Source: Ignavibacteria bacterium (GTDB taxonomy: Bacteria; Bacteroidota; Ignavibacteria; Ch128b). From it: a stretch of 64,000 bases of DNA. The notes under the pieces were generated by a model, which had not been told where the DNA came from, did not search any database, and worked only from the letters and a program-made list of their open reading frames with translations. Below, in pieces: positions 6,294 through 64,000 of this stretch. Positions within the stretch are counted from its first letter, which is position 1, and every line of letters starts with the position of its first letter. The stretch covers positions 62,001-126,000 of the forward strand of contig JABLYA010000007.1 of assembly GCA_013177855.1 (NCBI GenBank), read 5' to 3'. The translations under genes and the position numbers were made by a program.

Positions 6294-7481
6294 ATGATAA
6301 TATTTGGTACTATTATAATCGCTTTCGCTTGTGCAGGTATTCTTTTATGGAAATTCCATGAACGTATTGTTTGGTGGGAGATTGCTCTCGTAATTATTAT
6401 TCCAATTCTTTTATCTTTAGGTGCAAAAGCACTTATTGAAACTTATTCTGTTTATTATACAGAATATTGGGGTGATGAAGTGGTATCTGTAATCGAAGAA
6501 GAACCTTATAACTATTGGCACAGCGAAATTTGTTCAAGAGAAGTTGCTTGTGGAACAGACGAAAATGGAAATATTGAATATTGCACAGAATATTACGACT
6601 GTTCACATCAAGATGATGTTGGTCCTAATTGGTATGCTAAAACAAGACTTGGTAATTCTATTGTTATATCAGAAGAACAATATGATAAATGGAACAAACA
6701 ATTTGGTGGTAATCGCATTAAAACTAATACACATGAAAATTACGATCCAAATGATAAATGTGTAAATAGTAGTGGTACAAAGTTTTCTGGTAAAAATGTT
6801 GGCAAATATTCATATACGTGGGAAACAAGATGGGATGGTAATTATTTAACATCTGTTCCTTTAACAACAGAACATTCTTACATAAATAAAATAAAAGCTT
6901 CAGATTATACAGTATTTAATTATATTAAAATAAGCGAAGATGAAGCAGATTCTTTAAATCTTTATGACTATCCTGATATGATTAATAATTTCAGTTATCC
7001 GTCTGTTCTTGGTTATAATAGTAATAAAATAAATAATGAATTTCATAGAATTAATGGGCACCTTGGATATAAAAAACAAGTAAGAATTTGGGTATTAGTT
7101 CATAATACAACCGATTCTGAAATTGGATATAAGCAAGAATGTTACTGGGTTGGTGGTAATAAGAATGAACTTGTAATTAATATAGGTGTTCAAGGTAAAG
7201 ATATTAAGTGGTGTCATGTATTTTCTTGGACTAATATATCTTCATTAAAAAATGATATTAAACAGTTTGTGCTTAATCAGAAAGTATTAAATGATAATAC
7301 GTTTATGCAAATTGCAGATTATATTCACAATGAAACTGAAAAAAGATTTGAAAGACTTGAATTTTCTCAATTTGATTATCTAAGTATAGAACCACCAACA
7401 TGGACAATCATCGTGTCATACATAATAACTATTATTGTTTGTATAATTATTGGTGCATTAATCATTAATAATAAATATTAA
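6294..7481 (+). CDS. three-span membrane protein of unknown function
   Basis: The 395-residue protein has two N-terminal transmembrane segments (about residues 2-19 and 27-48) and one at the C-terminus (about 372-392). A large middle domain of roughly 320 residues is rich in Tyr, Trp and Asn. Four cysteines cluster near residues 80-105 (EICSREVACGTDENG, then EYCTEYYDCSH), suggesting disulphides or a metal site in a non-cytoplasmic domain. It follows the LemA-like gene with its own promoter, and the two may act together at the envelope. A bidirectional terminator separates it from the tmRNA. No known family assigned. Confidence 0.7.
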   Translation: MIIFGTIIIAFACAGILLWKFHERIVWWEIALVIIIPILLSLGAKALIETYSVYYTEYWGDEVVSVIEEEPYNYWHSEICSREVACGTDENGNIEYCTEYYDCSHQDDVGPNWYAKTRLGNSIVISEEQYDKWNKQFGGNRIKTNTHENYDPNDKCVNSSGTKFSGKNVGKYSYTWETRWDGNYLTSVPLTTEHSYINKIKASDYTVFNYIKISEDEADSLNLYDYPDMINNFSYPSVLGYNSNKINNEFHRINGHLGYKKQVRIWVLVHNTTDSEIGYKQECYWVGGNKNELVINIGVQGKDIKWCHVFSWTNISSLKNDIKQFVLNQKVLNDNTFMQIADYIHNETEKRFERLEFSQFDYLSIEPPTWTIIVSYIITIIVCIIIGALIINNKY

Positions 7482-7554: not shown

Positions 7555-7583
7555 AAAAAAGTCACTGAATATGTGACTTTTTT
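7555..7583. terminator. bidirectional terminator between membrane gene and tmRNA
   Basis: A-run, GTCAC (7561-7565), 7-base loop, GTGAC (7573-7577), T-run. The symmetric A and T tracts can end transcription of the plus-strand gene and of the minus-strand tmRNA. Confidence 0.75.
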
Positions 7584-7617
7584 GTTATATTATACTAATA
7601 ATCAATCGAATATCATT

Positions 7618-7983
7618 TGGTGGAGGTGGAGGGAGTCGAACCCTCGTCCTAATACCAACTCCTATTGATTTCTACAAGCTTAGAATATTTTTATAAATAT
7701 TCAAATCAAAGTTTTCTTGGATTTTACTTCTTATTTAAACTGAAAACAATAAAGCGTTTAAATTTGAAGTTTTTGTTGATTTTAGCGTTTTACCGCCAAG
7801 TAACCTTAAGCTACTTCAACTTCGTTTAGTGAATCAACAACACTTAGAACGAATGTTGGAATTGCGGTATTTAATAAACTTTCGTCATTTAAATTTGTTT
7901 ATTAATAATTTATTAATCGCTTATTAACAATGCGATACTTGCTTACAATATTAGTTAAAGTACAGTCAAAACCATACACCCCC
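7618..7983 (-). ncRNA. ssrA: tmRNA (SsrA) with an unusually long, divergent tag
   Basis: Read on the minus strand the RNA begins GGGGGTGTATGGTTTTGACT and ends GGTTCGACTCCCTCCACC then TCCACCA. The 5' GGGGGTG pairs with 3' CACCTCC, with A73 and encoded CCA; the 3' end has a perfect T-arm. Length is 366 nt, normal for tmRNA. In the mRNA-like part, the only long open frame near the expected resume point (about nucleotide 95) begins N-D-E-S, runs 27 codons and ends V-E-V-A before TAA (nucleotide 176). Host Bacteroidetes tags are about 9-11 residues ending A-L-A-A. A long tag without that ending recalls mycobacteriophage Bxz1 and Mycoplasma. It probably rescues ribosomes during infection; the SmpB partner would come from the host or elsewhere in the phage. 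Confidence 0.9.
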
Positions 7984-8289: not shown

Positions 8290-8769
8290 ATGTTACAAAA
8301 ACGAACAGAATTAGAAAAGAAAGAATTAATATTATTACTTTCTTGGTTAAAAGGCGAAGTATTTATTCAAAATAAAAAATTTAATTATGATGAGCTATTA
8401 CAAAGATGTATGATCGATGATGATGATGATGATATACCGATTAATGTGTCTGACTATTTTGATGATTTGATGCTTGACCTTTATTCATTATATGAAAAAC
8501 TATCAAAAATAACAAAGGAACAAATAGAAGAAAAAATAGTTAATAACACAATGTTTAAAATTCTTCCAAAAAAATGGATAGAAGAATCTATGAGAAGTTA
8601 CCAATCTTTTTTACATTTATATGAAGAATTGATGATGTCTTCAAAATTTGAATATCCACAAATCAGAAAAATTCAGAAAAATTTAATGAATGATTTTATT
8701 ACCAGATATATAGCATCTGAAGAATACGAAAAATGTATTGATTTGAAAGAGAAGATAAAAGAAGTGTAA
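8290..8769 (+). CDS. helical protein with UVR-like C-terminal motif
   Basis: The 159-residue protein is almost all helical, with an Asp run (about residues 43-48). Its C-terminal 50 residues (SSKFEYPQIRKIQKNLMND and then EEYEKCIDLKEKIKEV) resemble the UVR motif of UvrB/UvrC and McsA, a short helical hairpin used for protein-protein contacts (consensus E-x-Y-E-x-A/C-x-x-L/I-R/K-x-x-I). The same C-terminus occurs in the broken gene at 48862-49039, so two related copies exist. It is probably an adaptor rather than an enzyme. Confidence 0.6.
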   Translation: MLQKRTELEKKELILLLSWLKGEVFIQNKKFNYDELLQRCMIDDDDDDIPINVSDYFDDLMLDLYSLYEKLSKITKEQIEEKIVNNTMFKILPKKWIEESMRSYQSFLHLYEELMMSSKFEYPQIRKIQKNLMNDFITRYIASEEYEKCIDLKEKIKEV

Positions 8770-36541: not shown

Positions 36542-37174
36542 CTAATTTAACAAATGAGGATTTACTTCATCTTGCCAATGCTTTTTTGGACCGCCTTTAT
36601 ATTCTTTTAAAGGAATAAATTCAACTTTAGCATCTCTTCTCCACCAATAATCATCACGCATTTCTAATTCTTCATCTACTAAAACTTCTACTTTACATTC
36701 ATCGTCATTCCATATGTCTTTGTTTAAATAAGTTTCAATAGCATTTACAACATCATGAAGTTCTTTATTATCTTTTGGAAATTTCCAAAATGTAATTAAT
36801 TTATATTTTGGAAAATATCTACCAGCTAAATCTCCTCTACCTGCATGTTTTTCATACTCTACTATTTTTTCAATAGGAACATCTGGATATTGATCATGAA
36901 ATTCTTTTAAACTTTCTTTATTATTTATATCTGGTATTGGTAGATTATACCATCCTTTTTCTTTTAACCAATCATATAAACAGTCTATATGTGTGTAATT
37001 AACACAAAAATCACCATTGTAAAAACCAAATGCAAAACCTTCATTAAAGTGAAAATCTACATAATTACCATCTTTTGTTTGAAAATTTTGAACATAATTT
37101 GGATTTTCAAATAATTTAAATGATTTCACATTGTTTAACTTTCTTAATATTTTATTTCCATATAATTTTCCCAT
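36542..37174 (-). CDS. unknown 210-residue phage protein, possibly extended by readthrough
   Basis: MGKLYGNKILRKLNNVKSFK carries a capsid-targeting-like block slightly inside the N-terminus (VKSFKLFENP). The body is alpha/beta with a conspicuous basic-aromatic segment RGDLAGRYFPKYKLITFWKF and a WWRRDAKVEFIPL strand. There is no catalytic signature I can name. The ATG overlaps the end of the repeat protein upstream (37152), so the two are coupled. The frame continues past the TAG stop for 61 codons. Confidence 0.55.
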   Translation of the reverse strand: MGKLYGNKILRKLNNVKSFKLFENPNYVQNFQTKDGNYVDFHFNEGFAFGFYNGDFCVNYTHIDCLYDWLKEKGWYNLPIPDINNKESLKEFHDQYPDVPIEKIVEYEKHAGRGDLAGRYFPKYKLITFWKFPKDNKELHDVVNAIETYLNKDIWNDDECKVEVLVDEELEMRDDYWWRRDAKVEFIPLKEYKGGPKKHWQDEVNPHLLN

Positions 37175-38773
37175 TTATTTTACAATTTTGTTTTAACCAT
37201 TCTATATCTTTTTCAGTTAAATTATTATTATAACAATAAAAATTACCTTCAACCATTTCTGGAGCACCTTTTAATGAAGTTAATTGATTATTATAACAAT
37301 AAAAACCACCTTCAACTATTTCTGGAGCACCTTTTAATGAAATTAATTTATTATCAGAACAAATAAAATCACCTTCAACTATTTTTGGAGCACCTTCCAA
37401 TGAAGTTAATTGATTATCAGAACAATCAAAATAACCTTCAACCTTTTCTGGAGCACCTTCCAATGAAGTTAATTTATTATTATCACAATAAAAATCACCT
37501 TCAACTATTTCTGGGGCACCTTCTAATGAAGTTAATTGATTATCATAACAATAAAAATCACCTTTAACTATTTCTGGTGCACCTTTTAATGAAGTTAATT
37601 GATTATAAGAACAAATAAAATCACCTTCAACCTTTTCTGGAGCACCTTCCAATGAAGTTAATTTATTATTATCACAATAAAAATCACCTTCAACTATTTC
37701 TGGGGCACCTTCTAATGAAGTTAATTGATTAAAAGAACAATTAAAATTACCTTCAACCTTTTCTGGTGCACCTTCTAATAAAATTAATTGATTATAAGAA
37801 CAATCAAAATTGCCTTCAACCATTTCTGGTGCACCTTCTAATGAAGTTAATTGATTATAAGAACAATCAAAATAACCTTCAACTTTTTCTGGGGTACCTT
37901 CTAATGAAGTTAATTGATTAAAAGAACAATTAAAATAACCTTCAACCTTTTCTGGGGCACCTTCTAATGAAGTTAATTGATTATAAGAACAATCAAAATC
38001 GCCTTCAACTATTTTTGGTGAACCTAATAGTGTGTTTTTTCCCCATTTAATAGAATCATTAAAATATTTTTTATATTCTTTATTATAATTATTTAACAAC
38101 CAATATTTTATATCTTCATTTTCATTTAAAAATGTTTTTAGATCAACTTTTTTATCGAATTTATCCATGAATTGTTTTGATCTTAAATGAAGTTGGTATT
38201 TTTCTTTTGAATCTGTTTTAGAAATGAATATAAGTAATTCTCTTCCAGGTTTATGATATTTTTTATACCATTTAGAGGTTTTTTCTGTGGCTGTACACCA
38301 TTCAGTTCCTTTACCAAGAATGCATGAATCTTCATATGTTCTAGGAATATATAAATTAAAATTTTTAAACTCCTTTACAAAAATTTTATCTTTTATCTCA
38401 CTTCTGCTTAAAATTTCTTCACTTTCTTTAAAAGGTTCTATAGTTTTTGCTAATTCACCCAGAGAATCATATAAATTTATATCTCTTTTATTGAGAGGTA
38501 ATTTATTTCTAACAGATTGTCTATTAAATATATCCAAATAGTCTTTTACTTTATAAAGGTCTTCTAATTTTAATTTATTTGATTTATAAAGGTTTAAAAG
38601 CCACTTACAATATTTACCGAAATAAAGATTTCCATCTATCCAAGATGTTGGATCTGATGAAATAATTTCTTTAAATATTTTGTAATCAATGTTTTTATAA
38701 TATTTATTATAAATTACATCTATGTTTTCTTTTCGAATGATTTTTTCTAAATGAAATTGTTATAATTTTTCAT
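37152..38773 (-). CDS. large protein with 13 leucine-rich-like 21-residue repeats, frameshifted near its start
   Basis: ATG at 38773 gives MKNYNNFI, then a stop. Adding one T (ATTTAG to ATTTTAG) yields MKNYNNFILEKIIRKEN, a near-perfect capsid-targeting leader, and joins the long frame ending at TAA 37152. The N-terminal 90 residues include SSDPTSWIDGNLYFGKYCKW. Next is a domain with LGKGTEWCTATEKTSKWYKK, a W-C-T/V-A motif frequent in large-phage proteins of unknown function. Then come 13 tandem units of 21 residues with consensus G-A-P-E-x-V-E-G-D-F-x-C-S-x-N-Q-L-T-S-L-E, which should form an LRR-like solenoid binding a partner protein. Restored length is about 540 residues. Confidence 0.75.
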
Positions 38774-62730: not shown

Positions 62731-63201
62731 ATGAAAAAGCTACCAAAAGAAATAGACAGAACAAAAATCTATTTTAAAGTTACAAATGAAAAAGAAAATC
62801 ATTATGGATTACAATATCATGATGGATTAGTCGAAGACATAATTCCATTTAACGATAATTCAGAAGATAGTTGTGTTGAAGGTGGTATTTATTTTACCGA
62901 TTTAGAAAACATATATGAATTCTTTGATTATGGTTGCTATATACGTCCATTAACTATTCCCGGTAACGCTAAGGTTGTATTATTTCTCCAGCTACTTCGG
63001 TGGTGGTGGACAGGAAAGTGCCACGCAATCCCTTACTGCTGTTACACTCAAACGTTAGCAACAAGCCTAAAAACCCGAACCTCTACACAGAAGTTCGGGT
63101 TTTTTGTTTTAGGTTCTTTTAAAAAATGTAGTAGTGTAATACTTTTGAAAATAGGAGTATGGTGTAATGGTAGCATAATTCTCTCCAAAAGAATTGGTTA
63201 G
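62731..63201 (+). CDS. unknown phage protein, genuine only in its first about 80 residues
   Basis: MKKLPKEIDRTKIYFKVTNE to FDYGCYIRPLTIPGNAKVV reads as a phage protein with a strand-rich N-terminal half (HYGLQYHDGLVEDIIPF; YFTDLENIYEFFDYGCY). From about 62975 the same frame becomes incoherent and runs through a terminator and a tRNA. A different gene tail in another frame starts at 62981. The 3' part was therefore replaced at this join. Confidence 0.5.
   Translation: MKKLPKEIDRTKIYFKVTNEKENHYGLQYHDGLVEDIIPFNDNSEDSCVEGGIYFTDLENIYEFFDYGCYIRPLTIPGNAKVVLFLQLLRWWWTGKCHAIPYCCYTQTLATSLKTRTSTQKFGFFVLGSFKKCSSVILLKIGVWCNGSIILSKRIG
62981..63058 (+). pseudogene. 3' tail of a GC-richer gene
   Basis: YFSSYFGGGGQESATQSLTA then VTLKR and TAG, followed at once by a strong terminator. 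Codons are richer in G/C than in neighbours, like a highly expressed gene. The body of the gene is not in the window. Confidence 0.45.
63071..63105 (+). terminator. strong terminator
   Basis: AAACCCGAAC (63071-63080) pairs with GTTCGGGTTT (63093-63102), followed by TTTT. Confidence 0.85.
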
Positions 63202-63223
63202 GGTTCAAATCCTTATACTCCTG
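63153..63223 (+). tRNA. tRNA-Trp (CCA)
   Basis: Acceptor AGGAGTA pairs with TACTCCT. Anticodon stem ATTCT/AGAAT around loop CTCCAAA gives anticodon CCA. The T-loop is GGTTCAAATCC. CCA end not encoded. Confidence 0.85.
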
Positions 63224-63263
63224 CTAAGATTACTAACAACAAATTATTAACAATAAAACTACA

Positions 63264-63348
63264 TTGTGACGTGGGTGAGCGGTGCAGCCACCAGTCTGAT
63301 AAATTGGGTACGTAAAGTACGAGGTGGTTCAACTCCCACCGTCACAAC
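63264..63348 (+). tRNA. tRNA with GAT anticodon loop and long variable arm
   Basis: Acceptor TTGTGAC/GTCACAA and anticodon stem CCAGT/ATTGG enclose loop CTGATAA, so anticodon GAT (Ile) by the standard rule. The variable region carries a hairpin GTAC-GTAAA-GTAC, as in class II tRNAs (Leu, Ser, Tyr), which is unusual for Ile. The T-loop seems to have eight bases. It might be a Tyr-type tRNA (GTA) with a one-base insertion. Confidence 0.65.
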
Positions 63349-63357
63349 AAAATATAA

Positions 63358-63432
63358 CGGCTCGTAGCTCAGCCTGGTGAGAGCGTCTGACTGATACTCA
63401 GAAGGTCGTAAGTTCAAATCCTACCGAGCCGA
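63358..63432 (+). tRNA. tRNA-Ile (GAT)
   Basis: Acceptor CGGCTCG/CGAGCCG. Anticodon stem TCTGA/TCAGA with loop CTGATAC gives GAT. Normal D- and T-arms and a normal short variable loop. Confidence 0.88.
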
Positions 63433-63550
63433 CAAATTAAAAACATTAAAAAATAGAAATTATGACATATACTTTTAAACATAAACATTTTAAATTTAGT
63501 CGCATAAGTGGCTCAGGATAATATTACCTATAAATTAAAATTAGGTGTGT

Positions 63551-63582
63551 AACCCAGAGCCAAGAAAGGTTCTGGGTTTTTT
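63551..63582 (+). terminator. strong terminator inside the tRNA cluster
   Basis: AACCCAGAGCC (63551-63561) pairs over 11 bp with GGTTCTGGGTT (63568-63578), then TTTT. It splits the cluster into two transcripts. The preceding 63433-63550 holds no gene I can support. Confidence 0.85.
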
Positions 63583-63609
63583 GTTAAGTTCTTTTTTTAT
63601 TGAAAAAAT

Positions 63610-63696
63610 GAGGGTATAGCTCAATTGGTGGAGCTTCTGACTTTTAATCAGAAGGGTGACGTATGTCCGTTGTGGGTTCGAGTCCCACTACCCTCA
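63610..63696 (+). tRNA. tRNA-Lys (TTT) with long variable arm
   Basis: Acceptor GAGGGTA/TACCCTC. D-arm GCTC/GAGC. Anticodon stem TCTGA/TCAGA with loop CTTTTAA gives TTT. T-arm GTGGG-TTCGAGT-CCCAC. Between anticodon stem and T-stem are about 18 bases that can form a small hairpin (GAC-GTAT-GTC), unusual for Lys. Confidence 0.8.
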
Positions 63697-63740
63697 CTTT
63701 AATCATTCGTATTCGTAGTTGGCGAACCAGAATACCACAA

Positions 63741-63815
63741 GGAGTAGTAGCTCAGTAGGTAGAGCGCTGGACTGAAAATCCAGGTCTTGCGGCAGTTCGA
63801 TTCTGCCCTTCTCCG
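63741..63815 (+). tRNA. tRNA-Phe (GAA)
   Basis: Acceptor GGAGTAG/CTTCTCC with one T-T mismatch. Anticodon stem CTGGA/TCCAG with loop CTGAAAA gives GAA. T-arm GGCAG/CTGCC. Confidence 0.85.
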
Positions 63816-63825
63816 CAACAAACAT

Positions 63826-63912
63826 GGTGTCTGTAATCGGTAATTGGTGTCCGACCAGATTGTGACTCTGGAAACCATAAGGTTCATGTGGGTTCGAATC
63901 CCATCAGACACC
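63826..63912 (+). tRNA. tRNA-His (GTG) with long variable arm and encoded G-1 candidate
   Basis: Acceptor GTGTCTG/CAGACAC with C73. The base before the acceptor is G, opposite C73, as expected for G-1. Anticodon stem CCAGA/TCTGG with loop TTGTGAC gives GTG. The variable region is about 16 bases with hairpin AACC-ATAA-GGTT, unlike normal tRNA-His. The Thg1-like gene in the same window makes this tRNA of interest. Confidence 0.82.
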
Positions 63913-63916
63913 CAAT

Positions 63917-63989
63917 GGTGAGGTAGCAAAGGTGGTCTATGCAGGGGACTGAAAATCCTCAAATGTGGGTTCAACTCCCACCCTCACCA
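63917..63989 (+). tRNA. second tRNA-Phe (GAA)
   Basis: Acceptor GGTGAGG/CCTCACC, anticodon loop CTGAAAA (GAA), T-arm GTGGG-TTCAACT-CCCAC. It differs strongly in sequence from the first Phe tRNA and has a short three-pair D-stem. Confidence 0.75.
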
Positions 63990-64000
63990 CAAAAGGAAAA

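Follow-up and report, generated by a model that had tools for sequence, protein, structure and literature searches.

A phage-encoded tmRNA with a 26-codon tag and a candidate pathway linking ribosome rescue with Clp proteolysis

The rescue of ribosomes by tmRNA and SmpB is well established, and tags ending in LAA are read by ClpXP. In E. coli, the A that sets the frame lies four bases ahead of the resume codon (PMC2481249). Among phages, tmRNAs are on record for the mycobacteriophages Bxz1 and Wildcat, Bacillus phage G, the OM43 phage Melnitz and Streptomyces phages tagged ANSNVASAYALAA, at times together with SmpB, and huge phages carrying both tmRNA and SmpB have already been reported (PMC7162821). 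About 2% of phage genomes (402/18,146) contain a tmRNA, and the published guesses for its role are the upkeep of hijacked machinery or amino-acid recycling (PMC9004378). In Mollicutes (Mesoplasma florum), a long tag has departed from LAA and ClpXP and works with a different protease (PMC9382460). The protein families treated below are also known from large phages, since ClpP, ClpS, ClpA and ClpX of jumbo phages have been reviewed, with ClpP thought to serve maturation or to act against the host (PMC7824862). That review mentions neither tmRNA, SmpB nor trans-translation, whereas the phages described below have a tmRNA gene linked to clpP.

The window, that is, the whole analysed stretch of 64,000 nucleotides (C7:62001-126000), contains a complete one-piece tmRNA (table 1). 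The Rfam tmRNA model RF00023 is matched over its full length (model 1-374) with 77.5 bits against a gathering cut-off of 47 (E 2.3e-28), and the fold is 4.9 SD stabler than shuffles (z = -4.9). The first-pass annotation, made from the sequence alone, had described a tmRNA with full tRNA-like ends and proposed a covariance-model alignment as the check; both the match and the ends hold up. The 7-bp acceptor stem, the G3-U70 pair, the T arm (GAGGG-UUCGACU-CCCUC) and the encoded CCA (read at 7983-7977 and 7640-7618) are those of an alanine acceptor, so that the tRNA-like domain would, as read from its sequence, be of the alanine-accepting type. Among the pseudoknots PK1-PK4, a candidate PK1 stem alone was recognized, in a region of the RF00023 model that aligned poorly. 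ARAGORN, run over the window, missed the gene, and a megablast of its DNA against phage records returned no similarity, with T-arm matches only at low stringency. The gene stands alone in intergenic space, between one gene that ends at 7481 and another that starts at 8290. About 30 bp beyond the 3′ CCA lies an inverted repeat which is a possible terminator, and which is absent from the list of a consensus terminator scanner.

The tag starts at GAC (7886) and has 26 codons, because the A(-4) rule fits the sequence TTAAAT before GAC; the same rule excludes a 27-codon tag starting at AAT. Of the earlier description of a 27-codon tag ending in V-E-V-A, the long frame and the ending therefore stand, and the length is one codon shorter. 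In the local fold, a hairpin of 8 bp closes on the stop UAA, whose three bases are exactly its loop. Since 12% of shuffles of the 78 bases of the tag are also open, the open frame by itself is weak evidence, and the case for a long frame is made by its resume signal, by the hairpin around the stop and by the related RNAs described below. The C-terminus reads E-V-E-V-A (NEVEVA). Canonical ClpXP degrons of the ssrA type are short and end in LAA; with 26 codons and a VEVA end, the window tag lacks the usual ClpXP-type ending, as the first reading had it. It also differs from the Lon-type tags of Mollicutes, which end in NYAFA. Compared with bacterial tmRNA, the window RNA shares the tRNA-like domain, P2, the A(-4) resume signal, the hairpin-loop stop and the SmpB partner, and differs in its 26 codons without LAA, the most frequent length being 10 (PMC11915505).

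Table 1. Features of the tmRNA gene and its flank, in window positions
Feature	Position	Strand	Basis
tmRNA (ssrA-like) gene, one-piece	7618..7983	minus	Rfam RF00023 and fold z-score
tRNA-like domain, 5′ part: GGGGGUG acceptor strand with G3; GGUUUUGAC; P2 start	7955..7983	minus	Rfam alignment and sequence reading
Candidate PK1 stem AUCGC/GCGAU	7916..7936	minus	Rfam alignment and MFE
Predicted 9-bp hairpin UUAAUAAAC/GUUUAUUAA, resume codon in loop	7871..7905	minus	MFE structure, prediction only
Tag reading frame, 26 codons, GAC resume, DESLLNTAIPTFVLSVVDSLNEVEVA	7809..7886	minus	A at -4 of GAC
8-bp P5-like hairpin AAGUAGCU-UAA-GGUUACUU around tag stop	7798..7816	minus	Local fold
Tag stop codon UAA, hairpin loop	7806..7808	minus	
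tRNA-like domain, 3′ part: P2 3′ strand, T arm, acceptor strand with U70, encoded CCA	7618..7672	minus	Rfam alignment and sequence reading
Inverted repeat GTCAC/GTGAC with T and A runs at flanks, possible terminator	7557..7590	minus	Sequence reading

The contig of the window, C7 (147 kb, 26% GC), encodes a head-tail adaptor, a DNA polymerase, a primase and an RNA ligase/tail-fibre protein. The tail sheath and tube are found on C8, and the portal and major head protein on C5. Contigs C5-C9 have a GC content of 25-28% and are probably one huge phage of ~0.5 Mb; C7 and C8, which have edge and repeat segments in common and were not joined in the assembly, almost certainly belong to the same phage. 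The bacterium of the same assembly (C1, 2.65 Mb), presumably the host, has an ssrA of its own with 214.8 bits and the tag DNYNYALAA, and also encodes SmpB, ClpP, ClpX, ClpC, ClpB and ClpS. The window RNA, on phage contig C7, is thus a different gene from the ssrA of that bacterium. The suggestion that the tmRNA was of phage type is borne out, and the comparison with the host gene that had been proposed as a test sets a short LAA tag on C1 against 26 codons on C7.

Several other features of these contigs were recorded. Clusters of tRNA genes with duplicated isoacceptors occur at 63153-63990 of the window, C5:84835-88488 and C6:122753-125333. Repeated families of small proteins lie at C7:20395-37232 (L011) and at 37152-38537 of the window; several members begin with MK[IV]R.GFVSNSSSSSF, and there are repeats of NQLTSLEGAPE, which also break the assembly at contig ends. 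Two more co-binned contigs of the assembly, C3 and C4, are phage-like with a crAss-like look, each with one very long ORF (5414 and 5861 aa).

The phage of the window encodes its own SmpB (C7:45133-45579, L012:5133-5579), with scores of 191.9 in Pfam (cut-off 27) and 192.2 in NCBIfam (cut-off 130). This protein is 58% identical to the SmpB of a viral contig (L106) and 44-56% identical to several others. A ClpS is also encoded on C7. The unfoldase on C8 (669 aa) is ClpC-like, having two AAA modules, a D2-small domain and a ClpP loop of IGF type as in ClpC/ClpA unfoldases, and is 52.7% identical to the ClpC of C1 versus about 43% to its ClpB. It retains the loop LGKGIGFTTSS at the place where ClpC and ClpA dock ClpP, and a Pfam scan gave no Clp_N domain. 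A search for clpP in the contigs attributed to the phage found none, ClpP being present on C1 only, and the window tmRNA is not adjacent to any Clp gene. Consequently, the phage ClpC would need the ClpP of the host or a clpP on an unrecovered piece. The tail sheath is related to those of phages with SmpB (G017, G021, and G022) and of phages with both ClpP and ClpC (G045 and G065).

Genes of translation and protein quality are also found elsewhere on these contigs. A cluster at C7:129386-133715 (L014:3386-7715) consists of an RF1-like protein, thioredoxin, DnaK and ClpS, and C9 encodes translation initiation factor IF3 (L127:220-759). The RF1-type gene (C7:129300-129934, L014:3300-3934) has PPT and GGQ motifs with most of the N-terminal domain missing, and its halves join in the +1 frame at CUU-UAG-C, to be compared with CUU-UGA-C of the prfB frameshift. 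UAG is the stop read by RF1, and the layout is kept in five distinct loci (L014, L197:6972, L227:6984, L234:6958, and L236:6925), which makes it possible that the gene is an RF1 regulating itself through a programmed frameshift.

Scans of viral contigs produced two RNAs of the same architecture, L023 and L029, with 27-codon tags (DDNTVSTTKYFLNELEAEFNGKLALTA and DETNVTSAQYLESIALAVTSEKAALSA, respectively). In both, clpP is located directly upstream of the tmRNA, with gaps of 51 and about 350 bp. Other hits of the sequence-pattern search (TGGTTTTGACTG...) were mostly chance matches. Bacteroidota controls that share the T-arm pattern, drawn from collections of viral sequences and of genomes, nearly all had 9-10-codon tags ending in -LAA or -FAA.

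Fifty viral records were then chosen by ClpP similarity alone and each was searched whole for tmRNA. They comprise the higher-scoring ClpP relatives and larger contigs and are not a random sample; they are metagenomic, mutually related, and none is flagged complete. A tmRNA at E ≤ 1e-12 was present in 41 of the 50, and one more (L219, 46.1 bits) fell just under the cut-off, giving 42/50, a count which does not represent independent events because the records are related. All 42 tmRNAs are downstream of clpP and on its strand, at a distance below 2 kb in 40 (85-1969) and of ~6 kb in two. In Lak phages, three ~640-kb phages, E. coli phage 121Q and two human faecal phage fragments, a search extending 4 kb from clpP gave no tmRNA. 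In records larger than 200 kb, a Clp unfoldase (ClpC) was found in 6/7 and SmpB in 4/7; the eight unfoldases found in large records are all ClpC-like with an [IVM]G[FL] loop. SmpB is present in just 6/32 clpP records, and a search in 14 tmRNA-bearing phage records found none.

Further tmRNAs were met outside these loci. Two viral fragments (L143/L144:1501-1908) carry a tmRNA ~0.6 kb from smpB and beside an endonuclease-like gene, apparently with a 6-nt T loop. The L143 tag ends in SEVAVA, and the SmpB of the fragments is 56% identical to that of the window phage. A further viral tmRNA (L022:5426-5838), missed by ARAGORN, has a frame that suggests a tag of ~38 codons (AKTQLIQGLLDRFNPAKKVASSKIIARKSVARQLAVAA), and a Microgenomates (CPR) tmRNA (L052:4300-4700) has a predicted 28-codon tag (VTKNNASLAFATLKANLSGGYPLNYAFA).

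The 35 distinct clpP-linked tmRNAs have tags of 25-27 codons with the consensus [DG]N[DES][FL].[IV][SD]ENFL...GE[LV]A[VLF]A. Their C-termini are the most uniform part, with E at -5 and L/V at -4 in 35/35 and A at -1 in 32/35. With the window RNA, L023, L029 and L143 added, the RNAs number 39 and the distinct tags 36. Differences at codon positions 1, 2 and 3 amount to 2063, 1657 and 3289, respectively, and 55% of the single-base codon differences were synonymous against 22% expected. The excess at third positions and of synonymous changes shows that the tag frames are translated and selected, the clpP-linked frames being under purifying selection as protein. The window tag resembles this family by its length, which falls in the 25-27-codon range, and its C-terminal motif alone. 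Against the clpP-linked profile it scores a nonsignificant 1.1 bits, reached by 340/2000 shuffles, and its tmRNA has no clpP upstream on the same strand. Its end (NEVEVA) fits E[LV]x[hydrophobic]A (p 0.0015 in shuffles, post hoc), a motif not matched by the LAA tags of Bacteroidota. A PTF-x-L stretch, which the window tag presumably has in common with that of Mesoplasma, was dropped as a candidate link, being absent from other phage tags.

The explanation that best accounts for these observations, at a probability of about 0.6, is that the window tmRNA works in a pathway owned by the phage, in which ribosome rescue leads on to proteolysis by Clp, its tag being the degron for a phage-modified Clp machine. 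Under this explanation, the alanine-charged RNA would be carried by SmpB into ribosomes stalled on truncated mRNAs during infection, translation would switch to the tmRNA frame at GAC, and a phage-specific tag of 26 residues ending in ...NEVEVA would be appended. The tag would most likely be a degron for the phage ClpC docked on ClpP and not for the LAA-reading ClpXP of the host. Related large phages seem to make the pairing explicit, with clpP kept directly upstream of the long-tag tmRNA. For the window phage we infer the route, from expression and charging to tagging and the protease that reads the tag, since no phage clpP was recovered and the likeness of the tag is limited to length and C-terminal motif. 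As for the phage ClpS, ClpS in E. coli diverts ClpA from ssrA-tagged substrates (PMC9382460), and it may be speculated that the phage protein could free the host unfoldase of competing work.

A different possibility is that the phage RNA only frees ribosomes and that its long tag is loosely constrained, no longer a degradation mark, and stabilizing or neutral. The divergence of the window tag and its loss of LAA agree with this, as does the finding that phage plaque formation in E. coli tolerates altered tags and that rescue needs no tag function (PMC2481249). However, the clpP-linked tags show strong conservation at the protein level, most of all in their C-termini, and a protease gene lies beside the tag RNA in 42/50 of the related records, which makes a rescue-only role unlikely. 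The first-pass annotation had left it open whether tagged products are stabilized, rerouted or degraded otherwise. The phage SmpB, ClpC and ClpS, and the ClpP beside the tmRNAs of relatives, point to another route of degradation, and stabilization is less likely than degradation through a different Clp machine.

Less probable again is a degron read by another ATP-dependent protease of phage or host. C9 encodes a protein of 695 aa in which an AAA/ClpB-D2-small module is fused to an M41 (FtsH-type) protease domain (L127:13161-15248), and C6 a C-terminal fragment of Lon; tags of Mollicutes are longer and are read by Lon after the loss of ClpXP (PMC9382460). The repeated genomic partner of the long-tag phage tmRNAs is, on the contrary, ClpP, with ClpC in the largest records, and C6 and C9 are only presumed to belong to the window phage. 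The Mesoplasma florum tag ends in NYAFA and is read by Lon, whereas the phage tags end in ...GE[LV]A[VLF]A or NEVEVA and are probably read by ClpC/ClpP.

The clpP gene next to the tmRNA might instead encode a head maturation protease, the linkage being the inherited synteny of one phage lineage. Its PHROGs family is labelled "head maturation protease", and the records are related. Still, in alignment with solved cellular ClpPs the protein keeps the catalytic triad of Ser, His and Asp, and among proteins of solved structure cellular ClpP is closest to it (179 bits). The neighbor that recurs at these loci is dnaJ (61/80), accompanied in some of them by a small protein of RF1 type, and no capsid or portal domain was found by Pfam in eight neighbor representatives. 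A maturation role combined with mere synteny is therefore improbable, to nearly the same degree as another protease.

Two readings have very little probability. A phage tmRNA that takes over the host by competition, titrating host SmpB or stalled ribosomes and so blunting host trans-translation, has a parallel in the TLD-only RNA of mycobacteriophage DS6A, which inhibits tmRNA (PMC4131195, PMC11915505), but this phage brings its own SmpB, and the full tag frame and resume signal are kept, which a decoy would not need. A decaying relic would agree with the failure of ARAGORN and with the divergence of the window tag from the clpP-linked family, but the tRNA-like elements are all intact, and so are the 26-codon frame, its resume signal and the hairpin at its stop.

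With respect to novelty, phage tmRNA, phage SmpB and jumbo-phage ClpP and ClpS are known, and the clpP-tmRNA locus with its tag family is best filed as a variant of trans-translation. Like reported phage tmRNAs, these are phage-encoded, at times with SmpB; unlike them, they show clpP linkage, a conserved family of 25-27-codon tags and co-occurrence with ClpC, features undescribed in the papers found. Bxz1, which had been put forward as a precedent, is confirmed as a phage with a tmRNA, and to that extent only (PMC4131195). A search of the open-access literature, with subscription papers and preprints outside its range, gave no description of the clpP-tmRNA locus or of the long-tag family.

For large phages in general, a self-contained and partly host-orthogonal system of rescue and degradation is proposed tentatively, with the odds slightly against it: their own tmRNA, often with their own SmpB, would write a C-degron of 21-27 residues, to be read by phage ClpC with phage ClpP, or with host ClpP in phages that bring the unfoldase alone. 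What is rescued by the phage and by the host would then be disposed of along different routes. A tmRNA gene that is repeatedly found beside clpP and whose tag is conserved as protein makes the role testable, the expectation being that the phage Clp machine recognizes the tag as a degron. If true, this would be the second natural case, after the Lon switch of Mollicutes, of a tag and its protease changing together, and controlled proteolysis would gain new pairs of degron and protease.
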